From the NCBI GenBank assembly GCA_017640785.1, contig JAEPPZ010000012.1:1-64000 (forward strand): DNA of 64,000 nucleotides, given 5' to 3'. The notes under the pieces were generated by a model. The model saw only the letters and a list, made by a program, of their open reading frames with translations. It was not told the origin of the DNA and searched no databases. This DNA is from Balneola sp. GTDB lineage: Bacteria; Bacteroidota; Rhodothermia; Balneolales; Balneolaceae. Both the position numbers and the translations under genes were made by a program. Of this stretch, positions 289 through 10,225 are shown piece after piece (the stretch's first letter is position 1; the number at the start of each line of letters is the position of its first letter).

Positions 289-1587
289 TTATTCGATATT
301 CAACACCTTCTCCATCCTCTCCTGAATCTCCTCTAACATCAAATTTCCGATACTACCTTCGTGCGTGTGATTCAGTTCTTTTGGAGGCACAAAACTTCCG
401 TCTTCGATCTGTTTTGCCACTTGCTGATAGGCTTCCCGAAAAGGAATTCCTTTTACCACTAATTCATTAACAGCCTCTACAGAAAAGATGAGTTTATATT
501 TCGGATCATCCAGAATGTCCTTAACCGGTTCAATTTTTGACACAGAATAAGAAGCGATTTTCAGACAGCTTTTCATTTCTTTGATGGCCGGGAATAACAA
601 TTCCTTCAACAGCTGAAAATCTCTGTGATACCCGGAAGTGAGATTACTTAAAGTCATCATGATCTGATTCGGAAGCGCCATCAATACATTGGTTTTAGCA
701 CGAAGCAATTCAAATACATCCGGATTTTTCTTGTGGGGCATAATGCTGGAACCCGTTGTAAGCTCATCAGGTAATTTCAAGAATTGAAAATTTTGACTGT
801 TGTACAGACACACATCAGCAGCTAGTTTATTCAAGGATGAAGCCAGGTTTGCTAACGCTGAAGCGACCACTTGTTCTGTTTTTCCCCTTCCCATTTGAGC
901 ATACACTGAATTATAGACCATACTTTCAAATCCAAGTAAGTCAGAAGTCATTCGTCGGTTAAGCGGAAAACTAGAACCATAACCCGCTGCTGATCCCAAC
1001 GGATTTCTGTTCACAACTTTATACGCGCCATTCAATATCTCCACATCATCAACTAAACTCTCTGCGTAAGCGGAAAACCACAATCCGAAACTACTCGGCA
1101 TTGCCGCCTGAGTATGAGTATATCCCGGCATGAATACATCTTTGTGCGTGCCTGCCTGATCGATAAGTGCAGAAAACAGGTCATTGGTAAGCGATTCTAT
1201 TTCCTCTAATTGTTCTCTCAGAAATAAGCGAATATCTACTAACACCTGATCATTTCTGGATCGACCGGAATGAATTTTCTTACCTACATCACCCAGTTCT
1301 TTGGTCAACATCAATTCGATCTGGGAATGTACATCCTCCACACCGTCTTCGATCTGAAACTTTCCTTTTGCAATGATCTGCTCCTGAATATTCTCCAGTT
1401 CTCTGATCAGAATCTCTAACTCAGATTTCTCCAATAAACCTACGGATTCCAGCATAGTGATATGGGCAATGGTTCCGCGCACATCATGTTTCGCAAGTTC
1501 AAGATCCAGTTCACGATCTTTCCCAACCGTAAACTCTTCAATGAATTGATCCGTTTTAATTCCCTTTTCCCAAAGTTTTTTTGCCAT
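289..1587 (-). CDS. argH: Argininosuccinate lyase
   Basis: Cleaves argininosuccinate to arginine and fumarate, the last step of arginine synthesis, in the cytoplasm. The 432-residue product has the fumarase/aspartase superfamily signature GSSIMPHKKNPD around residue 280, which carries the flexible catalytic loop, and the N-terminal GRSRNDQV block around residue 108 that binds substrate. Length is slightly below the usual 450-470. It is the last gene of the minus-strand arginine operon, 76 bp after argE. That gap holds a small CCCCTctcaaaAGGGG hairpin, so downstream expression could be tuned at the RNA level (inference). No frameshift or missing motif seen. Confidence 0.96.
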   Translation of the reverse strand: MAKKLWEKGIKTDQFIEEFTVGKDRELDLELAKHDVRGTIAHITMLESVGLLEKSELEILIRELENIQEQIIAKGKFQIEDGVEDVHSQIELMLTKELGDVGKKIHSGRSRNDQVLVDIRLFLREQLEEIESLTNDLFSALIDQAGTHKDVFMPGYTHTQAAMPSSFGLWFSAYAESLVDDVEILNGAYKVVNRNPLGSAAGYGSSFPLNRRMTSDLLGFESMVYNSVYAQMGRGKTEQVVASALANLASSLNKLAADVCLYNSQNFQFLKLPDELTTGSSIMPHKKNPDVFELLRAKTNVLMALPNQIMMTLSNLTSGYHRDFQLLKELLFPAIKEMKSCLKIASYSVSKIEPVKDILDDPKYKLIFSVEAVNELVVKGIPFREAYQQVAKQIEDGSFVPPKELNHTHEGSIGNLMLEEIQERMEKVLNIE

Positions 1588-1663
1588 AATAACTTCCTTT
1601 ATTCTGAGCGTGTCTATTTACACACACCCCTGAATCCCCTCTCAAAAGGGGACTTTTCCTTTC

Positions 1664-2725
1664 CTATAATTTCAGTTTATTTAATAACTCAATATACGTT
1701 TCGATTCCTTCTTCGATTTCGCTCAGATAAATATATTCATCGGCAGTATGTGAGCGATGTGTGTCTCCCGGTCCCATTTTAATACACGGAAACGGCATGT
1801 GAACCTGATCCGACATAGTTTGTGAACCATAGGTTTTTATTCCAAGCTCTTTGCCTTTCATAACCACAACATGATTCTCAGAAATACCGGATGCGTTTAG
1901 GTTCAGCGATCTTGGATTTACTTCACAATTCACATGTTCCTTAATAAGTTCTACAACTTCTCTGTTAGTGTAATGCTCATTCGGGCGGACATCAACAACG
2001 AACTTACATTCATCGGGCACTACATTGTGCTGAGATCCGGCTGAGATCTGCGTCACTGTCATATTTACTTTCCCGAGCACTTCCGATTTCTTTTCAAATT
2101 GATAATTCCTGAACCACTCGATATCATTCATCGCTTTATAAAGAGCGTTTTCTCCTTCACTTCTTGCCGCATGTCCGCTTTTCCCGTGAGCAATACAATC
2201 CAGAACAATCAACCCTCGCTCAGCAATCGCCATGTCCATGGATGTCGGTTCCCCCACCACTCCAAGATCGATCTTACCCAATTCTTCTAACACAATAGGA
2301 ACACCTTGTTTGCCGGAAGTTTCCTCTTCAGCAGAGGCCAGAAAAACCAGGTTGTAGTTTTGATCAGTACCTGCCAAATGAATAAAAGTATGCAACAAAC
2401 TAACCAATGGACCGCCGGCATCATTACTTCCCAATCCGATCAATTTTCCGTCTTCAACAGTTGGGCTAAAAGGATCGTAACTCCACTTGGAAGAAGCCTT
2501 CACTGTATCGTGATGAGAATTCAGAAGAATCGTTGGCTTTGTTTCATCTATTTCTCTTGCCCACGCCCAAACGTTGTTCTTCTTTCTCTCAGCATTAAAA
2601 CCTTGCGCCTTCAAATACTCTTCGATCACATCCGCAGTTTTATCCTCCTCCCCACTGTAGGACTGAATAGAAATGAGTTGCTTTAGTAATTCTATGGCGT
2701 TTTCGAACAATTCATCTTTCTTCAC
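1664..2725 (-). CDS. argE: M20 family N-acyl-citrulline/ornithine deacylase (ArgE-like)
   Basis: A 353-residue M20 zinc metallopeptidase. Visible metal-site motifs are LNSHHDTV (His, about residue 71), GLGSNDAGGP (bridging Asp), SAEEETSG (catalytic Glu pair), VGEPTS and the late HTADEY histidine. In pathways that carbamoylate an acylated ornithine, this enzyme removes the acyl group from N-acylcitrulline instead of N-acylornithine. The neighbouring argF' and the absence of an ordinary argF support that role here. The acyl group (acetyl or succinyl) cannot be read from this sequence alone. It lies between argB (166 bp upstream, with a repeat in the gap) and argH in the operon. Confidence 0.88.
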   Translation of the reverse strand: MKKDELFENAIELLKQLISIQSYSGEEDKTADVIEEYLKAQGFNAERKKNNVWAWAREIDETKPTILLNSHHDTVKASSKWSYDPFSPTVEDGKLIGLGSNDAGGPLVSLLHTFIHLAGTDQNYNLVFLASAEEETSGKQGVPIVLEELGKIDLGVVGEPTSMDMAIAERGLIVLDCIAHGKSGHAARSEGENALYKAMNDIEWFRNYQFEKKSEVLGKVNMTVTQISAGSQHNVVPDECKFVVDVRPNEHYTNREVVELIKEHVNCEVNPRSLNLNASGISENHVVVMKGKELGIKTYGSQTMSDQVHMPFPCIKMGPGDTHRSHTADEYIYLSEIEEGIETYIELLNKLKL

Positions 2726-2764
2726 ATTGACCTCCCCTGACTTATAATCAAATTTACAATTCCC

Positions 2765-2880
2765 GGGTAGTTCCTCCCCTCCTCCAACAGGAGGGGAAAA
2801 CTCATTTTCAAATAACCAAATCTGCTTAAAGAGTCCTTCTCCTTGGACAAGGAGAAGACAGAAGAGGTCGAAACTATATA
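2765..2880. repeat. Dispersed double-hairpin repeat inside the arginine operon
   Basis: Two consecutive palindromes fill the argB-argE gap: CCCCTCCTccaacAGGAGGGG near 2776-2798 and CCTTCTCCTTggacAAGGAGAAG near 2840-2865. A similar arrangement (a CCCCTCC hairpin, a spacer, then a CTCCTCC hairpin ending in GACAGAGGAGGTC) occurs at about 9210-9305. It looks like a mobile intergenic repeat. Within an operon such hairpins can act as RNA processing or stability elements (inference). Confidence 0.65.
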
Positions 2881-2891
2881 GATTAGCATTT

Positions 2892-3653
2892 TCATTTCAC
2901 CAACCTCGTTCCTTTTTCTTCATCTTTAAACACATCAAATCCAACAATTCTGACTTTTTTAGCTCCTGCATTCAGTGCTTTAAAACCCAGCTCCAGTTTC
3001 GGAATCATTCCTTCTTTTATGATACCATTTCCCTCCAGATGACGATATAACAATAAATTCATTTCGGTGATCAATTTCTCGCCATTCATAACGCCTTCAA
3101 GGTCAAAACACAGATCCATTGCAACATCTTCATGCTCTGCCAATCCTGAAGCAATAAAGCCCGCGATATTATCTGCGTTTGTATTCAATAGCTGTCCATT
3201 GCCGTCGTGTGTCAGTGGTGCGATTACAGGTGTAACCCCTTCGTTCAATAAGCTGTTTAGAACCGTAGCATCTACCTGTTCGATATCCCCCACAAAACCA
3301 AAATCTATAGGTTCCGGATCTCTTTTTTTCGATTGGATCAGGTTCATATCAGCACCGGAAAGACCAATTGCGTTACAACCCAACGCCTGAAGTTTTGCCA
3401 CTATCTTTTTATTCACCAATCCGCCGTAAACCATGGTCACCACATCGATCATATCGGAATCGGTTATTCTTCTGCCATTGATCATTTTGGATTTCAGTCC
3501 CAGCTTTTCTGCTACATCAGAAGCTATTTTCCCGCCTCCATGAACCAGAATTTTCTTGTCTTCAATTTGAGCAAAATCCTGTAGAAACTGATCCAACTTT
3601 GCTTCGTCATCAATGACTTTACCACCGATCTTTATGACTTTTATTTCACTCAT
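2892..3653 (-). CDS. argB: N-acylglutamate kinase (acetylglutamate kinase family)
   Basis: Phosphorylates the gamma-carboxylate of N-acylglutamate using ATP. The 253-residue product begins IKVIKIGGKVIDD, the amino-acid kinase lysine/glycine loop, followed by ILVHGGGK at about residue 35 for the phosphate-binding glycines, and has a C-terminal GMIPKLELGFKAL segment that positions nucleotide. This is the short, arginine-insensitive form without the N-terminal helix of feedback-inhibited ArgB; control is therefore likely elsewhere (inference). It overlaps argF' by 8 bp, indicating translational coupling. In the succinylated Bacteroidota pathway the same family acts on N-succinylglutamate. Confidence 0.93.
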   Translation of the reverse strand: MSEIKVIKIGGKVIDDEAKLDQFLQDFAQIEDKKILVHGGGKIASDVAEKLGLKSKMINGRRITDSDMIDVVTMVYGGLVNKKIVAKLQALGCNAIGLSGADMNLIQSKKRDPEPIDFGFVGDIEQVDATVLNSLLNEGVTPVIAPLTHDGNGQLLNTNADNIAGFIASGLAEHEDVAMDLCFDLEGVMNGEKLITEMNLLLYRHLEGNGIIKEGMIPKLELGFKALNAGAKKVRIVGFDVFKDEEKGTRLVK

Positions 3654-4593
3654 TTTTCAGAATTTTATTGAATATAGTTTGAGCGGAAACAATTCTGTTG
3701 GTTGCCTCTTCGATCACCAGTGAATTCGCGCTGTCAATTACGACATCGCTCACAACCACATTTCTTCGAACAGGTAAACAGTGCATGAATTTAGCGTCGT
3801 TCGTAAGTTCCATTTTAGCCTCATCAACCATCCAGTTTTTATCTTCAGAAAGTATTTTTCCGTACTCCGAATAACTACTCCAGTTTTTTGCATAGATGAA
3901 ATCAGCCCCTTCAAATGCTTTTTTCTGATCGTATTCGATATGTGCGTTCACTGAAAATTCAGGAGCTAATTCGTAGCCTTCTGGATGAGTGATTGTAAGA
4001 TCATACTCCGCTTTTTGAGTCCACAAAGAAAACGAATTCGCCACTGCCTGAGGAAGTGCTCTCGGATGAGGCACCCAGGTCAATACTACTTTTGGTTTAT
4101 CTATCTTCTTATGAGTTTCAATAGTGATCAGATCTGCAAAAGCCTGCAAAGGATGTCTGGTAGAAGACTCCAGATTTACCACCGGCACCGGACAATGTTT
4201 AATAAACTGACTCAAAACCTGTTCTGAATAATCAGCTTCGCGATCTTCCAATTTTGCAAAAGCACGGATCGCCACCAGATCAAAGTAAGAACCGATCACT
4301 TGTGCTGCTTCTTTGACGTGCTCCGCTTTGTTTCCATTCATGACAGCTCCGTCAGCGAACTCCAGTTGCCAACCGCCTGCTCCTACATCAAAAACAGTTA
4401 CATCCACACCCAGATTCTGAGCCGCTCTTTGGGAACTCAACCTGGTTCGCAAACTTGGATTTAGAAACAACAAGCAGATCGACTTATTTCGGATGCTTCC
4501 CTTCTCTTTAAATGGGTTTTTCTTTACTTCCAATCCTTCTTGGATCAGACTTTTCAGATCGTCTACATCATCAATTGAGAAAAACTGTTTCAT
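3646..4593 (-). CDS. argF': N-acyl-L-ornithine transcarbamylase (succinyl-type favoured)
   Basis: A 315-residue aspartate/ornithine carbamoyltransferase homologue. The carbamoyl-phosphate loop appears as NPSLRTR at residues 45-51 (usual STRTR replaced, as in AOTCase/SOTCase enzymes). The late HCLPVRR block near residue 275 is the acyl-ornithine form of the usual HCLP motif. As I recall the Bacteroides SOTCase and Xanthomonas AOTCase work, the residue at SOTCase position 90 decides acyl specificity: Pro gives succinyl and Glu acetyl preference. Here it is Ala90 in NGNKAEHV. Small residues at that site were reported to favour succinylornithine, so N-succinylornithine carbamoyltransferase is my preferred call. 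Overlaps argD by 4 bp and argB by 8 bp. Confidence 0.92.
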   Translation of the reverse strand: MKQFFSIDDVDDLKSLIQEGLEVKKNPFKEKGSIRNKSICLLFLNPSLRTRLSSQRAAQNLGVDVTVFDVGAGGWQLEFADGAVMNGNKAEHVKEAAQVIGSYFDLVAIRAFAKLEDREADYSEQVLSQFIKHCPVPVVNLESSTRHPLQAFADLITIETHKKIDKPKVVLTWVPHPRALPQAVANSFSLWTQKAEYDLTITHPEGYELAPEFSVNAHIEYDQKKAFEGADFIYAKNWSSYSEYGKILSEDKNWMVDEAKMELTNDAKFMHCLPVRRNVVVSDVVIDSANSLVIEEATNRIVSAQTIFNKILKNE

Positions 4594-5717
4594 GATAATT
4601 CTTCCTTTATAGCTTTTAAAAAATCCGTTGTTTCTCTTTTTCCAATTCCCAAAGAAGGCAACAATCGTAATGTATTTTTATCGGATGAGGAGCCCGTAAA
4701 AATGTAATGTTTATATAATAATGTCTTTCTCATTTCTGCGATCTCAAATTCGAATTCCACTCCTATCATTAACCCTGCACCACGAACTTCTTTTACCTTC
4801 GGAAGCTTCTTCAATTCTTCCTTCAGGTATTCACCCATTTCTTCTGCGTGCTTGATCAGGTTTTCCATTTCCATCACTTCCAGCACCGCCAGAGAAGCTG
4901 CACAGGCCAAATGATTTCCGCCGAATGTTGTTCCCAGCATCCCGAATGAAGCCTCGAACTTTGGAGACGTGATAATTCCTCCAATAGGAAACCCGTTGCC
5001 CATTCCTTTTGCCATGCTGATAATATCAGGCTCAACTCCTGAATGTTGATGAGCAAAGAACTTACCCGTTCTTCCAAACCCCGATTGTATCTCATCCAGA
5101 ATGAGAACCGTATTTGTTTGATCGCAAAACGTTCTGATATGCTTCAAGAACTCCGGTGACGGTGCATGAATGCCACTGATCCCTTGAATACCTTCGATCA
5201 AAACCGCACATACCTCTTCTTGTTTTAAGGCTTCTTCAACACCTTCAAAATCTTCCAGTTTTAGTCGGACTATTTCTGCTCCTTCATTCACAGGAAACAA
5301 GATCTTCGGATTGTCAGTAGCAGCAACAGCAAGCGAAGTTCTACCATGAAATCCTTTTTCGAAAACCAGAATTTTCTTTCTTCCATTGTGTGCAGATGCC
5401 ATTTTCAGTGCATTCTCGTTGGCTTCTGCCCCTGAATTGCACAGAAATAAATTCCAGTCTGTGTATCCCGAAAGTTCTCCAAGTTTCTCTGATAATTCTT
5501 TCTGAACTCCGATGGGAACAGAATTTGAATAAAAACCGATCTTGTTTATTTGCTCAGTGATGCGCTTCACATAATGCGGATGTGAATGTCCGATAGAAAT
5601 GACGGCATGACCACCATACATGTCTAAATATTTGGTTCCGTCTTCCGTGTAAACATAATTCCCTTTAGCTTTCACGGGCTCCACATCAAACAAGGGATAA
5701 ACAGGTAATAAATCCAT
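4590..5717 (-). CDS. argD: N-acylornithine aminotransferase
   Basis: A class III PLP aminotransferase of 375 residues that converts N-acylglutamate semialdehyde to N-acylornithine with glutamate as donor. Visible features are GGHAVISIGHSHP (around residue 35), LILDEIQSGFGRTGKF with the PLP-contacting Asp (around 205), and SMAKGMGNGFPIGG carrying the Schiff-base lysine (around 235). A little shorter than the usual 390-400, with a compact C-terminus. Its start overlaps the argC stop by one base and its stop overlaps the argF' start by four, so translation is tightly coupled. A broader succinyl/acetyl range is common in this family. Confidence 0.94.
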   Translation of the reverse strand: MDLLPVYPLFDVEPVKAKGNYVYTEDGTKYLDMYGGHAVISIGHSHPHYVKRITEQINKIGFYSNSVPIGVQKELSEKLGELSGYTDWNLFLCNSGAEANENALKMASAHNGRKKILVFEKGFHGRTSLAVAATDNPKILFPVNEGAEIVRLKLEDFEGVEEALKQEEVCAVLIEGIQGISGIHAPSPEFLKHIRTFCDQTNTVLILDEIQSGFGRTGKFFAHQHSGVEPDIISMAKGMGNGFPIGGIITSPKFEASFGMLGTTFGGNHLACAASLAVLEVMEMENLIKHAEEMGEYLKEELKKLPKVKEVRGAGLMIGVEFEFEIAEMRKTLLYKHYIFTGSSSDKNTLRLLPSLGIGKRETTDFLKAIKEELS

Positions 5718-6682
5718 CAGAATGCGCTCCCTTTCAATTTCAATCCGGTGGTTTCTTTCAGACCAAACATCAGATTCATATTCTGAACTGCTTGCCCTGA
5801 GGCGCCTTTTACTAAGTTGTCTATAACTCCGGTTATAAGTAATTGATCTCCCTCTTTCTGAAGATGAAGAACTCCTTTGTTAGAATTCACAACTTGTTTT
5901 ACATCTACAGCTTTTTCTGAAATATGAACAAAAGGATGACCGCTGTAATAATCTTTGAATAATTCACCGGCTTCTTCCAGAGACAGCTCTGTTTTCAGAT
6001 AACAAGCTGCTAATATTCCTCTGGTAAAAGCCCCGCGAAAAGGAACAAAATTAATAGTGCTATCAAAATCATTTTTAAGCTGGGTTACACTTTGTGTGAT
6101 CTCGCCCAGATGCTGATGCGTAAATGCTTTATAGACCGAGGCATTGTTACTTCTCCAACTAAAATGGGTAGTTGATGTTGGGTTTTGCCCGGCTCCGGTA
6201 CTGCCCGTCATCGCTGACACATGAACATCATTGTTCAACAAATTCGCTGAAGCCAGAGGTAACAGGCACAACTGTATACATGTTGCAAAGCACCCCGGAT
6301 TAGCTACTTTTTCTACTTTTTTGATCAGATCTCTGTTCAACTCAGGCAAGCCATAGATAAATTCATTTCCTTCGGATTTCAAACGAAAATCTGAACTCAG
6401 GTCAATGATCTTTGCCTTTTCAGGAATTACTCCGGACTCTATAATCCCTTTTGATTTCCCATGACCTGAGCAAAGAAAAACAACTTCCACTTCCTGATCT
6501 AACTGCTCATCAAATACCAGATCGATCTCACCGATCAGGTCAGGATGTGCCTCATGGATTTTTTGTCCCGAGTGACTTTTACTGACAACAGAAGTCAATT
6601 CCACTTTAGAATGATTGATCAAAATTCTGATCAACTCACCGGCTGTATATCCTGCCCCACCAATTATTCCAACTTTAATCAT
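5717..6682 (-). CDS. argC: N-acyl-gamma-glutamyl-phosphate reductase
   Basis: NADPH-dependent reduction of N-acylglutamyl phosphate to the semialdehyde. The 321-residue product starts with the Rossmann nucleotide loop VGIIGGAGYTAGELIRIL. The catalytic cysteine lies in VANPGCFATC around residue 130, a pattern specific to ArgC, and a catalytic His is likely within the HQHLGEI segment near 190. Shorter than the 345-residue E. coli-type protein, as is common in this phylum. It overlaps argG by 8 bp upstream and argD by 1 bp downstream. Confidence 0.95.
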   Translation of the reverse strand: MIKVGIIGGAGYTAGELIRILINHSKVELTSVVSKSHSGQKIHEAHPDLIGEIDLVFDEQLDQEVEVVFLCSGHGKSKGIIESGVIPEKAKIIDLSSDFRLKSEGNEFIYGLPELNRDLIKKVEKVANPGCFATCIQLCLLPLASANLLNNDVHVSAMTGSTGAGQNPTSTTHFSWRSNNASVYKAFTHQHLGEITQSVTQLKNDFDSTINFVPFRGAFTRGILAACYLKTELSLEEAGELFKDYYSGHPFVHISEKAVDVKQVVNSNKGVLHLQKEGDQLLITGVIDNLVKGASGQAVQNMNLMFGLKETTGLKLKGSAF

Positions 6683-7871
6683 TGTTCTGTACCGATTGTT
6701 GAATGAGCGTTGCGTTTGCCAAGATCTTCGTAAAGCCTTTTACATCTTCGCCACTCCAGCCTTGATTCATCTCTCCATACTGACCATGTTTTGATTGCAT
6801 CAGATCAAATTCAGATTCAATACCGATCAGTTCGAATTGCTTAGGTTCTAATTTCACAAACACCTTTCCGGTCACTTTTTGCTGAGTATTTTCCAGAAAA
6901 GCTTCGATATCTCTCATCACCGGATCCAGAAATTGTCCTTCGTGCATCAACATTCCGTACCACTCGCCCAACTGATCTTTCCAGTACAACTGCCATTTTC
7001 CCAACACATGTTTTTCCAGTAACTGATGCGCTTTGATCAATATCATGGGAGCAGCCGCTTCAAATCCAACTCTGCCTTTTATTCCGATGATGGTATCACC
7101 TACATGAATGTCTCTGCCAATTCCATATGGTTGCGCAATTTCCTGAAGTTTTTTGATCGCCTGAACAGAAGTTAACTTCTCACCGTTAATGGACGTTGGT
7201 TCTCCATGTTCGAACCCGATTTCTACGATTAACCCGTCTCTATTAACTATTTTTGTTGGCCACGCTTCTTCCGGTAGTGTTTGATGAGAAGTGAGTGTTT
7301 CAGCACCACCCACACTTGTCCCCCACAATCCTTTGTTGATGGAATATTTCGCTTTCGCCCATTCTTTTTCCACTCCATGACTTTTCAGAAACTCCACCTC
7401 TTCTTCGCGACTCAGTTTCATGTCTCTGATGGGTGTGATGATCTCCATCTCCGGAGCAAGCACATTAAAGATCAGATCGAAACGAACCTGATCATTACCC
7501 GCTCCCGTGCTTCCGTGTGCGATGGCATCAGCGCCGATCTTCTTGGCATATTCTGCTATTGCCACAGCTTGAAATACACGCTCGGCACTTACTGAAAGCG
7601 GATACGTATGGTTTTTTAACACATTCCCGAATAACAGATATTTAATTCCTTTCTGATAGAATTCCTGCTCAACATCAATGCAGACGTGATCTTCTATACC
7701 AAGATCAGCAGCTTTCTGTGCCAGTTCTTTTTGTTCTGCTTCATCAAAGCCGCCGGTGTTTACAGCCGCGGTAAACACTTCGTATCCCTTTTCTTTTGCC
7801 AGATGAATAGCGCAATAACTGGTGTCTAAACCACCACTAAATGCTAATACTACTTTTTTATTTTTCTTCAT
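6675..7871 (-). CDS. argG: Argininosuccinate synthase
   Basis: ATP-dependent condensation of citrulline and aspartate. The 398-residue protein opens with the PP-loop VLAFSGGLDTSYCAIHL, the N-type ATP pyrophosphatase signature. AHGSTGAGNDQVRFD around residue 117 is the citrulline/aspartate-binding block. It follows the GNAT gene by 97 bp; that gap contains a long variant of the GTCATCCTGAAC palindromic repeat. The early position of argG, before the acyl-pathway genes, matches the arrangement I know from Bacteroidota arginine clusters. Confidence 0.95.
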   Translation of the reverse strand: MKKNKKVVLAFSGGLDTSYCAIHLAKEKGYEVFTAAVNTGGFDEAEQKELAQKAADLGIEDHVCIDVEQEFYQKGIKYLLFGNVLKNHTYPLSVSAERVFQAVAIAEYAKKIGADAIAHGSTGAGNDQVRFDLIFNVLAPEMEIITPIRDMKLSREEEVEFLKSHGVEKEWAKAKYSINKGLWGTSVGGAETLTSHQTLPEEAWPTKIVNRDGLIVEIGFEHGEPTSINGEKLTSVQAIKKLQEIAQPYGIGRDIHVGDTIIGIKGRVGFEAAAPMILIKAHQLLEKHVLGKWQLYWKDQLGEWYGMLMHEGQFLDPVMRDIEAFLENTQQKVTGKVFVKLEPKQFELIGIESEFDLMQSKHGQYGEMNQGWSGEDVKGFTKILANATLIQQSVQNND

Positions 7872-7968: not shown

Positions 7969-8610
7969 TTAAAAGACCTTCAACGGTTTAATGAGTTTCT
8001 GAACGGAAGCGGTTTTCATCTGCACCCACCGGTAAAACTTTCTGATGTTTGCTTCGCGTTCTTCTTTTGGTTTGTTATTCGGATGCTGAGGATCGTACAA
8101 CATTCCTGTGCATAAACAATTCTTGCGATTATTCCTAGAAAGTATGTCGTAATTCGGACAGCTTTGACAACCTCTCCAAAACGTTTCATCCTGAGTGAGT
8201 TCTGAAAATGTTACCGGCTTATAACCAAGATCCGAATTGATCTTCATAACCGGCAAGCTGGTCGTGATCCCGAATAACTTCGCAGTTGGGTATTTCTTCT
8301 TTGACAACTCAAATGCTTTTCCTTTGATCTTTTTTGCCAATCCAAGCCCTCTGTAATCCGGATGAACGATCAGTCCCGAATTCGCCACATACTTTTTACT
8401 TTCCCATATCTCGATGTAGCAAAACCCGACCAGTTTATCCCCATCTAAGGCTATAACCGCATTTTGGTTTTCAAATTTAGTTTTGATGTAATTGGGATCA
8501 CGTTTTGCAATACCTGTTCCGCGCTGTTGAGCTGCTTTTTCAATAAGTGCACAGATCTCTTCCGCATAAACTGCGTGCTTGGATGAACCGAAATAGATAG
8601 AAACCGACAT
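7969..8610 (-). CDS. GNAT acyltransferase, probable N-acylglutamate synthase
   Basis: A 213-residue GCN5-related acyltransferase. The acyl-CoA pyrophosphate-binding motif A is visible as VHPDYRGLGLAKKIK near residue 82-96 (R-G-x-G-x-A pattern). After the GNAT core there is a Cys-rich tail with CQSCPNY and NCLCTGM near residues 147-170, unusual for a plain GNAT and suggestive of a structural metal site. As first gene of an otherwise complete acylated arginine pathway with no argA/argJ, it is the natural candidate for making N-acetyl- or N-succinylglutamate. I recall that a GNAT protein at this position in Bacteroides was assigned by genetics to N-succinylglutamate synthesis. The function is context-based; the GNAT fold is clear. 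Confidence 0.82.
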   Translation of the reverse strand: MSVSIYFGSSKHAVYAEEICALIEKAAQQRGTGIAKRDPNYIKTKFENQNAVIALDGDKLVGFCYIEIWESKKYVANSGLIVHPDYRGLGLAKKIKGKAFELSKKKYPTAKLFGITTSLPVMKINSDLGYKPVTFSELTQDETFWRGCQSCPNYDILSRNNRKNCLCTGMLYDPQHPNNKPKEEREANIRKFYRWVQMKTASVQKLIKPLKVF

Positions 8611-8677
8611 GTGAGTAAAAGATGGAAATCCCGAAGGAAAAATTAGAATTGAACTGCTTTTATTAATTTAGATGAGA

Positions 8678-8705
8678 TGGTAATCGTAGAAAACACGACA
8701 TACCA
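8678..8705 (-). promoter_or_regulatory. Hairpin between arginine leader frame and operon start
   Basis: On the minus strand TGGTA-TG-TCGT, loop GTTTTCT, ACGA-T-TACCA forms a nine-pair stem with a small internal loop. It begins seven bases after the stop codon of the Arg-rich leader frame and ends 67 bases before the GNAT start. No U-run follows, so it is not a classical intrinsic terminator. A ribosome at the leader's last Arg codons or stop would cover its 5' arm, which fits a translation-sensing switch (inference). Confidence 0.5.
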
Positions 8706-8712
8706 CTATGCG

Positions 8713-8778
8713 TTACCGCCGCCGCGGAATGCGCCGTACAGATCGTCTGTCAATTCTATGTGCAAGAGATTTTTGCAT
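8713..8778 (-). CDS. Putative arginine leader peptide (21 aa) of the arg operon
   Basis: An ATG-started 21-codon frame ends 102 bp upstream of the first arginine-operon gene on the same strand. It begins MQKSLAHRID. Residues 8, 11, 12, 15, 16, 19, 20 and 21 are all Arg, so eight of the last fourteen codons are Arg and the peptide ends Arg-Arg-Arg-stop. Codons used are AGA, AGA, CGA, CGG, CGC, CGG, CGG, CGG; the CGG/CGC run is GC-rich in an AT-rich genome and is probably slow to translate. A hairpin follows directly. This is the architecture of an amino-acid-sensing leader. No Shine-Dalgarno site is visible, which is normal for this phylum. A mirrored plus-strand frame (8708-8800) also has many Arg codons, because CGG/CCG runs are near-symmetric, but it points away from the operon. 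Confidence 0.6.
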   Translation of the reverse strand: MQKSLAHRIDRRSVRRIPRRR

Positions 8779-8909
8779 GGCTTGTAAAATGGGGAATTGA
8801 ATCTTTTAAAACAAGGGATGATTTAACTTTTAATTTTAGATTATGTCATTTCTGTAGATGTCACTTAATTCGTTGACGCTTTAATAGAGATAATTATGGA
8901 AAAACTCGC

Positions 8910-9066
8910 CCTAAGTATTTAAGACGGAATAGAGAACATGATCCGAATGCGTCTGCGAAGCAGGAATAATCCTTTCTGGTGAGAAGCGTAGTAATTTCCT
9001 CAGAATGAACGAAGACCTTTAGGATTATTCAGCGTAGGATCAGTGAACCCGTCTTAAATACTTCGG
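8910..9066. repeat. ~155 bp imperfect palindrome (MITE-like or structured RNA)
   Basis: The ends AAGTATTTAAGACGG (about 8912) and CCGTCTTAAATACTT (about 9048) are perfect inverted complements. Inside them GATCC pairs with GGATC, and GAATAATCCT with AGGATTATTC. The unit folds into one long interrupted hairpin and has no coding capacity. It lies upstream of the arg leader and downstream of the ECF sigma gene. The size and closed ends suggest a miniature inverted-repeat element; a structured RNA is the alternative. Confidence 0.65.
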
Positions 9067-9072
9067 CTTGAT

Positions 9073-9108
9073 CTTTTGTCCCGTTCGAACGGGATATCAA
9101 GACAAAAG
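9073..9108. repeat. Short perfect palindromic repeat
   Basis: CTTTTGTC and GACAAAAG bracket the self-complementary core CCCGTTCGAACGGG. Similar CTTTTGTC/GACAAAAG blocks with AAGTAGGTAGCCTTG-like tails are common filler in Bacteroidota genomes as I recall. No gene assigned. Confidence 0.6.
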
Positions 9109-9209
9109 TAGGTAGCCTTGTGCTAAGCTATGCCTTTTTATCTGGTCTCGATGCTATGCGTTGGAAACGGACCTCCCCGGCTACGAAACAGATTCTTTGG
9201 TTCTGAGTA

Positions 9210-9305
9210 GTTCGCCCCTCCTTGGATAAGGAGGGGAATTCCCGAGTTGATTCTAATTCTTATCAACGAGTCCTCCTCCTGTTGTAGGAGGAGACAGAGG
9301 AGGTC
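9210..9305. repeat. Dispersed double-hairpin repeat, second copy
   Basis: CCCCTCCTTggatAAGGAGGGG followed by TCCTCCTCCTgttgtAGGAGGAG and GACAGAGGAGGTC. Organisation and several blocks match the element between argB and argE at 2765-2880. Confidence 0.65.
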
Positions 9306-9634
9306 TTTACTTAAGGATTGTGAGTACATTTACTTGCTATGTGTACTTTTGTGCCGCTACTGAACTCCCTCAGCACAGGCTCCAGTACCAAAAGCTCACG
9401 ACAAGAATTATTGGCGCGAACTCCATTACATGGACTAATCATTACAAAAGGTCTACCTGTGTACGATGCATATTCAAGAATCAGCCAGAGTGTAATGATT
9501 GCTCCTTCGGAGCCGTCGACTTCATTGCGTTCTTGGCTCGCCAATAATTCTAAAGGTCGGTGAAGTTGGAGGTTTTTTCTGAAAACGTCAGGACGTTTAA
9601 GCAGAATAATTTTTGTAAGCGAATTAGCAGACAC
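9306..9634. other. Unassigned stretch downstream of the sigma factor gene
   Basis: About 330 bases that stay open in two plus-strand frames and one minus-strand frame. The minus frame begins GTG directly after the sigma factor stop codon and encodes 107 residues to 9311. I recognise no domain: no FecR anti-sigma tryptophan motif, membrane segment or zinc-binding pattern. Base composition is less AT-rich than the flanks. It may be a decayed gene or a short orphan protein co-transcribed with the sigma factor. Confidence 0.3.
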
Positions 9635-10225
9635 CTACAAACGGTACTGTTTTAATGATTCGCGCATATCTTTTAGTGCAAGTCCCATATGATTTTCAAC
9701 TGTTTTTACAGATACATCTAATACCTGAGCGGCTTCCTTATAAGTAAATTCCTGAATAAAGCAGAGCCGAAAAACTTCTTGTCTCTTTTCTGGCATTGCT
9801 GAAATAGCTTTCTCAATTGCGCTATTAAGCTCAGCTCTTTTGTTATCCTCATCTTCAGGTTCTTCATAAGATGTATTCTCCTCCGGATCAGCTTCTTCAT
9901 CGAATTTGGAATGATCTCTGAAAAGATTCAGCATCCTAGTATATCCGATCTTGAACAAAAATGCCCGAAGAGACTTTGTTTCGTCTATTTCGTCGCGTTT
10001 TTCCCAAATCATTACAAAAGCTTGCTGAACCAGATCTTTGGCAGCTTCTTTGGCGGTTCCTCTCTTCATTAAATAATTAAGAAGAAATGCATTATAGCGG
10101 TCAAAAAACTTTTTAAATGCCTCGTGATTTCCGTTCTTTATCTTTATGGCAAGTTCCGGGTCGGTTAATTCTTCAGAATCAACTGAGGCCAACAATAAAA
10201 TAAGTTGTAATAAGAGCGAGTTCAT
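9635..10225 (-). CDS. ECF-family RNA polymerase sigma factor
   Basis: A 196-residue sigma-70 family protein with region 2 at about residues 30-95 (AFKKFFDRYNAFLLNYL and RAFLFKIGYTRMLNLFRDH) and region 4 at about 135-190 (AISAMPEKRQEVF, then the helix-turn-helix YKEAAQVLDVSVKTVENHM). An acidic linker rich in Glu and Asp lies between. The type resembles Bacteroidota RpoE/FecI-like factors. No recognisable anti-sigma gene follows; only the unassigned frame described at 9306-9634. It diverges from the M23 peptidase gene with under 30 bp between start codons, too little for two independent promoters unless they overlap coding sequence or the true sigma start is further in. Confidence 0.92.
   Translation of the reverse strand: MNSLLLQLILLLASVDSEELTDPELAIKIKNGNHEAFKKFFDRYNAFLLNYLMKRGTAKEAAKDLVQQAFVMIWEKRDEIDETKSLRAFLFKIGYTRMLNLFRDHSKFDEEADPEENTSYEEPEDEDNKRAELNSAIEKAISAMPEKRQEVFRLCFIQEFTYKEAAQVLDVSVKTVENHMGLALKDMRESLKQYRL

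Follow-up and report, generated by a model that had tools for sequence, protein, structure and literature searches.

A 21-codon frame that lies directly before the arginine biosynthesis genes of a Balneola sp., and in which eight codons specify arginine, is very probably a cis-acting, ribosome-mediated arginine sensor (an attenuator) of the arginine operon. Judged by comparison of related genomes, selection is visible on the leader frame, on its CGG codons and on the RNA helices around it. The evidence includes the conservation and codon choice of the frame, the spacing of the promoter from its start codon, and a long-range RNA helix, P1, that starts inside the ORF and covaries.

Results

The leader frame and the arginine genes

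The window, i.e., the whole stretch of 64,000 nucleotides that was analysed, contains the following features, all on the minus strand:

8812-8814, minus strand: -33 element of the Bacteroidota type (TTG), at -36 to -34 relative to the first base of the leader ATG
8784-8791, minus strand: weak -7 box, here CATTTTAC; a TAnnTTT-like box at -12 to -5 in most relatives
8713-8778, minus strand: leader ORF encoding MQKSLAHRIDRRSVRRIPRRR*, 21 codons, eight of them for Arg
8750-8758, minus strand: 5' arm of helix P1, UAGAAUUGA, in leader codons 7-10 (covariation)
8716-8724, minus strand: CGG CGG CGG, the terminal Arg run before the TAA (8715-8713)
8678-8705, minus strand: hairpin P2, starting 7 nt past the leader stop (predicted fold; its 6-pair core covaries)
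8644-8652, minus strand: 3' arm of helix P1, UCAAUUCUA (covariation, swap test)
8629-8638, minus strand: small hairpin P3, UCC-UUCG-GGA, before the GNAT start (predicted fold)
8611-8655, minus strand: C-rich, G-poor segment before the GNAT ATG, a possible Rho or S1 loading region by its composition
7969-8610, minus strand: GNAT acetyltransferase, first structural gene (PF00583)
6675-7871, minus strand: argG (PF00764, PF20979)
289-6682, minus strand: argC to argH (Pfam domains; names given from domain and order)

After the leader, the genes follow on the same strand in the order GNAT, argG, argC, argD, OTC (argF), argB, M20-family deacylase (argE) and argH. Because of its place before these genes, the leader frame appears to head one arginine-pathway operon of eight genes, which look like a single operon by their order and spacing. 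The GNAT protein may serve as the pathway's N-acetylglutamate synthase. Its C-terminal part contains Cys, and it scores under all listed NCBIfam cut-offs.

The leader reads ATG CAA AAA TCT CTT GCA CAT AGA ATT GAC AGA CGA TCT GTA CGG CGC ATT CCG CGG CGG CGG TAA. Its Arg codons are, from 5' to 3', AGA, AGA, CGA, CGG, CGC and CGG CGG CGG, all eight within the last 14 codons, and its stop lies 102 nt from the GNAT start. The sequence from 8778 to 8713 thus agrees with the original prediction, made from this DNA alone, of a 21-codon frame that ends in Arg-Arg-Arg-stop upstream of the arginine operon. It is the only one among the 463 ATG ORFs of 14-45 codons on both strands of the window to have at least six Arg in its last 14 codons. 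The CGG and CGC codons, which had been described as standing out here, are indeed infrequent in the 51 ORFs of the window (2.9 and 3.7 per 1000), and CGG is its rarest Arg codon (51 of 680, 7.5%). The plus strand of the leader stretch has an Arg-containing open frame too (8708-8800). The leader peptide belongs to no known family in NCBIfam or Pfam, and when the leader region was compared at the DNA level with the own genome, the locus itself and six other matches were returned, which correspond to a repeat upstream of the leader (query positions 1-72) and not to the leader. The repeat lies at window 8829-8900, and the six matches are partial copies of it, ~39-65 bp long and with 75-85% identity.

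The tRNA-Arg anticodons seen in this genome are TCT, ACG and TCG (30 of the 34 tRNA matches were examined). As no CCG anticodon was seen among those 30, CGG is probably read by tRNA-Arg(UCG). A rho gene is present in the genome. ArgR (PF01316) was found in none of 38 genomes, the own genome included, in a search in which control rings were found in 9 of 14.

Conservation and codon choice in the Balneolaceae

Strong GNAT matches (E 1.4e-65 or better) were obtained in 42 of the 92 genomes of the family; two further genomes, G108 and G082, gave broken or weak matches. The same 42 genomes hold argG, so that genomes without this GNAT are also without this argG, assemblies permitting. The original prediction proposed looking for a conserved short Arg-rich frame upstream of the GNAT-argG pair in relatives, and reading of the upstream regions revealed an Arg-rich ATG frame in 40 of the 42 Balneolaceae loci. 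Thirty loci (L005-L023 and L029-L039) have a leader like that of the window, which we refer to as the main type (for example MQSTLAHRIDTRTPLRIPRRR, MQIKSRNRISTSFLRRIPRRR and MLISKVYRPIPIPGNPVRPIFRRRR), ten have a longer and divergent one (for example MKANGTHINTFSDSKTVAGISTFRFRVRRRALRAQQ), and two (L026, L027) have none. The leader of L036, which scored below the cut-off of the script and was identified by eye, is counted among the 40.

Codons and lengths were compared, and the swap test described below was performed, in 26 of the 30 main-type loci (L006, L008, L009 and L036 were excluded; the near-identical L029 and L035 were both kept). The leaders are 21 (16 loci), 25 (five), 23 (two), 22 (two) or 20 (one) codons long. 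The distance between the ATG and the motif CGGCRG(T/C)A, which is found in 25 of the 26 leaders, is 54, 57, 60, 63 or 69, all multiples of three. CGG makes up 103 of the 157 leader Arg codons (66%), versus 26 of 373 (7%) in the GNAT and argG genes at these loci, argG being parsed in 14 of the 26 loci only (Fisher p 2e-44). The last codon is CGG in 22 of the 26 leaders, the penultimate one in 24, and the third last codon is CGG or CGA in 25. In these leaders the Arg codon run adjoins the stop codon, as it does in leaderless short-ORF attenuators, and the peptide end, RIPRRR or similar, is kept while the middle of the peptide varies. This conservation of the frame argues that the leader ORF is translated. 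It should be noted that part of the CGG conservation could stem from RNA pairing instead of decoding.

Promoter and predicted transcript start

The TTG at -36 to -34 from the A of the leader ATG is well kept in the 26 loci (T in 21, T in 25 and G in 20), and so is the TAnnTTT-like box (T at -12 in 21, at -8 in 25 and at -7 in 22). In Flavobacterium psychrophilum, the box of the main sigma factor, TAnnTTTG, occupies positions -12 to -5 relative to the transcription start, and 5.5% of the examined mRNAs are leaderless, according to the cited parts of that study (PMC9723704). Since the spacing of the TAnnTTT-like box from the leader ATG matches that of the F. psychrophilum box from the transcription start, it suggests that the message starts at or within 1-2 bases of the leader AUG, i.e., that it is leaderless, the -7 box of the Balneola locus itself being weak. 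The start predicted from this consensus thus lies at about the leader AUG and not downstream of 8713, the placement that the original prediction had named as speaking against it.

RNA structure of the leader region

The hairpin noted in the original prediction, seven bases after the leader stop, corresponds to P2. P1, P3, the promoter position and the plus-strand frame were not part of that prediction. The long-range helix P1, starting inside the ORF, is the more telling structure. Its arms change in concert across genera (UAGAAUUGA/UCAAUUCUA, UAGUAUUGA/UCAAUACUG, UAGGAUC/GAUCCUA and UAACAUUGU/ACAAUGUUA). Covariation was measured in an alignment of 20 of the 30 main-type loci, from which the near-duplicates L006, L008, L009 and L035 were excluded, as were the loci of the g5 type (L020, L023 and L036-L039), in which P1 is shifted and weaker. 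In the 20 loci, P1 and the P2 core are paired in 88% of cells, versus 26-44% after a shift of one side by 1-3 columns, and 53 cells are changed on both sides, versus 17.8 in shuffles; these figures lean towards P1 because its arms were used to fix the ends of the alignment. The P1 column pair 9-128 is AU in ten loci, GC in seven, UA in two and CG in one, with no mismatch, and of the two outer-loop pairs, 13-124 is unpaired in 9 of the 20 loci and 14-123 in 8. For P2, changes on both sides were found in all six counted pairs.

The swap test is independent of where the alignment ends were set. In the 26 loci, the duplex between the leader and its native downstream region has a mean energy of -10.8 kcal/mol, versus -8.1 kcal/mol with foreign partners, and none of 20000 permutations, in which relatedness among the loci was left in, was as good as the native pairing. 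A covariance model of the region matched 22 of 296 genomes of the phylum under the stricter filters, with one match each; all 22 are Balneolaceae, and all matches lie directly before a GNAT match. No Rfam match was found in window positions 8500-9700 or in 20 loci that were scanned.

Helices that overlap the ORF are present, and as P1 starts in codons 7-10, the position of a ribosome could alter it. Equilibrium folding gave P1 a pairing probability of 0.31 for the own sequence and a mean of 0.56 over the 26 loci, and a modelled ribosome at the RRR codons hardly shifted this mean (0.56 to 0.54). According to these models, P1 would be covered only by an early stall or by a queue of ribosomes. 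In eight loci (L013, L019, L029-L032, L034 and L035), an ACCGC just before the P1 3' arm can pair with GCGGU, which belongs to the last Arg codon and the stop; in this part of the loci, the pairing would make the Arg codons themselves part of the folded structure. A predicted hairpin of different sequence is found near the position of P3 in many, not all, relatives.

A search for intrinsic terminators (a G+C-rich hairpin plus a U-run) gave no terminator-like site in 8400-8900, which bears out the earlier statement that no U-run follows the hairpin. P1 was considered as an intrinsic terminator and rejected for lack of a U-run after its 3' arm in most Balneolaceae loci; the bases after the P1 3' arm are U-rich in several loci of a Flavobacteriaceae-like family, where the helix may play such a role. 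The 45 nt before the GNAT of the window contain 11 C and 4 G. The mean composition of this segment over the 26 loci is 27% C and 6.6% G, versus 16.5% C and 15.1% G upstream of 50 window ORFs. Four other groups also have more C than G before GNAT, the weakest bias being that of the group f27, which we take for Flavobacteriaceae.

The same leader might have a translational output, stalled ribosomes freeing the initiation region of GNAT, a reading that we consider rather unlikely. It would have a precedent in the mycobacterial Cys leaders, reported as translational attenuators in the cited parts of PMC9031893 and PMC13236596, and in five of the ten divergent loci (L024, L042, L043, L044 and L046) the leader sequence GUACGGC, which includes an Arg codon, can pair with a GCCGUAC directly before the GNAT ATG. 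This pairing is invariant and hence without covariation; it is possibly a translational version of the switch in these five loci. In the main type, on the other hand, the GNAT start is mostly open in three modelled states (mean accessibilities 0.71, 0.71 and 0.74), and a ribosome at the RRR codons left it unchanged (0.71 to 0.71). In 45 further loci of four groups, which include four of the five GUACGGC loci, a modelled stall raised the accessibility by more than 0.15 in one locus only. Masking of the GNAT start is thus unsupported for the main type by equilibrium folding with and without a ribosome.

Arginine leaders in other Bacteroidota

Of the 296 sampled genomes, 124 have a GNAT match (E 1e-20 or better); 97 of these lie outside the Balneolaceae, and the upstream regions of 64 of the 97 were surveyed for frames. 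On the sense strand, 17 of the 64 loci have an ATG frame whose last ten codons include four or more for Arg, compared with 1 for the antisense strand and 1.0 after dinucleotide shuffling, while the other 47 loci have no frame that reaches this cut. With at least three Arg, the numbers are 27 sense, 5 antisense and 4.7 in shuffles. Lys, Leu and Ser gave no comparable sense-strand excess in the 64 loci; Ile and Phe are somewhat commoner on the sense strand at the cut of at least three (8 versus 3 and 9 versus 5), the shuffled controls being limited to R, K, L, S and H. Examples of such Arg frames are MLTQLTNIVRRDRRRVRRTK of Neolewinella agarilytica and MLQVPPRIRLLRRRI of a Lewinella. Arg-rich leaders of mostly other sequence thus recur before GNAT in other Bacteroidota, in some lineages and not in every one: no such Arg frame was found in Flavobacterium ammonificans (L239), and in eight loci of Marinifilum and Labilibaculum with argG beside GNAT, no ATG frame has more than two Arg in its last ten codons. 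No GNAT was found in the viral contigs searched.

In 95 longer loci from outside the family (60 short loci were left out), argG adjoins GNAT in 79; in nine of Dyadobacter it lies ~1 kb further on the same strand, and seven loci have no argG nearby (L051, L200, L202, L203, L212, L213 and L234). None of these seven has an ATG frame with at least three Arg in its last ten codons. Arg frames were read in a set of 80 loci, one of which was too short upstream.

In f27, three loci (L064, L068 and L069) have two Arg frames in tandem, and in six chosen loci the native pairing between leader and downstream region ranks second of 720 permutations, from which it follows that a P1-like plan may span classes. 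The RNA model R1 gave only weak matches to Flavobacteriaceae-like loci (18.8 and 18.5 bits, E 0.12 and 0.13). A conserved element was observed in 11 of the 24 loci of this Flavobacteriaceae-like family (L064, L057, L059, L066-L069, L071, L078, L079 and L085); it follows an Arg-containing frame and lies 64-118 nt upstream of where the GNAT match begins. It mostly reads CGTCGCCC-GTAA-GGG or similar, followed by a hairpin such as GGAAC-TTAGGTGAGTCC-GGTTC; of the 13 genomes searched, these 11 contain it, each in a single copy, and no Rfam match was found in the eight of the 11 loci that were scanned.

The Dyadobacter leaders (L218-L228, L231-L233, L235-L237, L240-L243, L246-L250, L252-L255, L260 and L261) form a case of their own. 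All 32 contain HTTPFRFRS, and 30 of them conform to MNxNGxxTVLHTTPFRFRS, with 2-3 Arg in the last ten codons. Such a near-invariant peptide, poor in Arg, would suit an arrest peptide, which raises the question of whether the nascent peptide, by binding arginine or by stalling at termination, could be the sensor instead of charged tRNA. The RIPRRR-like end of the Balneolaceae leaders, kept despite a variable middle, would fit this as well, but the body of the peptide varies widely in this family, the choice of CGG stands out, and several other groups share nothing but Arg runs, so that we regard a peptide sensor as improbable.

An arginine-binding riboswitch or some other structured RNA, with an ORF that is incidental to it, is more improbable still. 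Strong covariation and conserved unpaired stretches would be expected features of such an RNA and are seen here, but the lengths that keep the frame, the CGG bias and the spacing of the promoter near the ATG all favour translation, other lineages keep Arg frames with different RNA, and no Rfam family matches. That the frame is a functionless accident of a GC-rich patch can be dismissed: although the patch is open in other frames as well (the second sense frame in 17 of 26 loci, and the antisense frames in 9, 20 and 7), chance is contradicted by the comparative evidence, chiefly codon choice and covariation, and by conservation in nearly all of the 42 loci.

Discussion

A proposed mechanism

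The layout of a ribosome-mediated arginine sensor, which the original prediction recognised, has gained in substance through the conserved frame, the CGG bias and the covarying helices, all of them comparative observations. We propose that transcription would start at about the AUG and that the leader ORF would be translated from this leaderless 5' end, as the position of the promoter suggests. The ribosome would cross the cluster of Arg codons that ends at the stop, most of which are, across the family, the rare CGG, and its speed over them would be a measure of charged tRNA-Arg. With charged tRNA-Arg plentiful, the ribosome would pass and leave, and codons 7-10 would then, on the timing that we suppose, pair with the RNA ~30-65 nt before GNAT to form P1. 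The closed P1 would enclose a domain with hairpin P2, and in some relatives the last Arg codon and the stop would also pair with ACCGC. The C-rich, G-poor RNA beyond would be free of ribosomes, and the operon would be attenuated.

A shortage of arginine would make ribosomes stall or form a queue at the Arg codons; P1 would then be kept open, and the operon would be expressed. About one ribosome would fit between the P1 arm and the final Arg run, and our guess is that a queue of two would hold P1 open.

The attenuation step itself may be due to Rho, a tentative assignment that is suggested by the composition of the segment before GNAT and the presence of a rho gene. Termination of the Rho type is favoured here because no intrinsic terminator was found and folding gave no masking of the start codon; mRNA decay or altered loading of ribosomes are the alternatives.

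Relation to known systems

Attenuators of the trp, his and leu type precede an operon of the matching pathway and combine RNA helices with a leader peptide in which the regulatory amino acid occurs in runs. The Balneola leader resembles them in its amino-acid codon runs, its helices and its matching operon. It differs from them in that no U-run terminator hairpin was found, in its predicted leaderless start, and in the amino acid, arginine. To our knowledge, arginine is absent from the usual list of amino acids with leader-peptide control of bacterial biosynthetic operons.

Among the systems found in the literature, the leaderless polycysteine short ORFs of mycobacteria share several of its features (Canestrari et al. 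2020, via the parts cited of PMC9031893 and PMC13236596): a short leader at the 5' end of the transcript (predicted in our case), a run of codons for the end product near the stop, a place before the matching biosynthetic genes, and no obvious terminator. They concern cysteine and not arginine, belong to another phylum and have no known homology to the Balneola leader, and conserved hairpins are absent from the cys leaders of Mycobacterium as far as the cited parts go, whereas a covarying long-range helix that starts inside the ORF is present here. An earlier related prediction, also on leaders of cys operons, suggested Rho sites (PMC1262725, in part); the word 'arginine' occurs twice in that paper, outside the parts cited here, and is absent from PMC2965389.

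The leader orf34 of Salmonella speF likewise contains Arg codons, by which it senses arginine, and its outputs comprise Rho, RNA structure and decay, with no intrinsic terminator reported in the cited parts of PMC6386406. As described there, it differs in that it controls an ornithine decarboxylase, that its translation is needed to block Rho, and that its peptide has a conserved domain (PF10940); a resemblance in sequence to the Balneola leader was not noticed. In Staphylococcus aureus, the leader ORF rbfL senses arginine limitation by rare Arg codons, but it has eight codons and a GUG start with a Shine-Dalgarno sequence, overlaps the Shine-Dalgarno sequence of its target, and represses a biofilm regulator under limitation, a sign opposite to that proposed for the Balneola leader (PMC13009471, in the parts cited). 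None of these nearest systems, i.e., the polycysteine ORFs, orf34 and rbfL, controls an arginine biosynthesis operon according to the parts of the sources cited. In F. psychrophilum, of the same phylum in the wide sense, clues for leader-peptide attenuation were described upstream of amino-acid biosynthesis operons, and flavobacteria are reported to initiate translation without Shine-Dalgarno pairing; the parts cited of that paper do not name the amino acids and describe no arginine leader (PMC9723704).

A search of the open-access literature, which does not include preprints, yielded no arginine leader of a bacterial arginine operon, in line with the earlier remark that none of such a kind was known in this phylum. 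The Balneola leader would thus act like an amino-acid attenuator, yet without a classical terminator and with a predicted leaderless message, and the arginine operon would be a new target among the systems found.

Implications

It is a serious possibility, which we put forward with some reserve, that the Bacteroidota have a widespread class of arginine-leader attenuators before GNAT and argG that work without an intrinsic terminator and that replace ArgR at least in the sampled Balneolaceae and their relatives, with GNAT in the same regulatory unit. In its best-documented form, this class would have no 5' UTR and an ORF whose 5' half pairs past its own stop. The different leaders (RIPRRR in Balneolaceae, the tandem frames of f27, LLRRRI in Lewinella and FRFRS in Dyadobacter) would descend with rapid turnover or have originated repeatedly.

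Since ArgR was not found in the 38 genomes, the leader would, if true, answer how the arginine pathway is controlled there. It would also provide a compact test system for ribosome-coupled control, with a predicted leaderless message and no intrinsic terminator, in a group reported, for flavobacteria, to initiate translation without Shine-Dalgarno pairing. The same comparative recipe, in which the first gene of an operon, a short frame before it, codon bias and covariation are considered together, could reveal leaders for further amino acids in this phylum.
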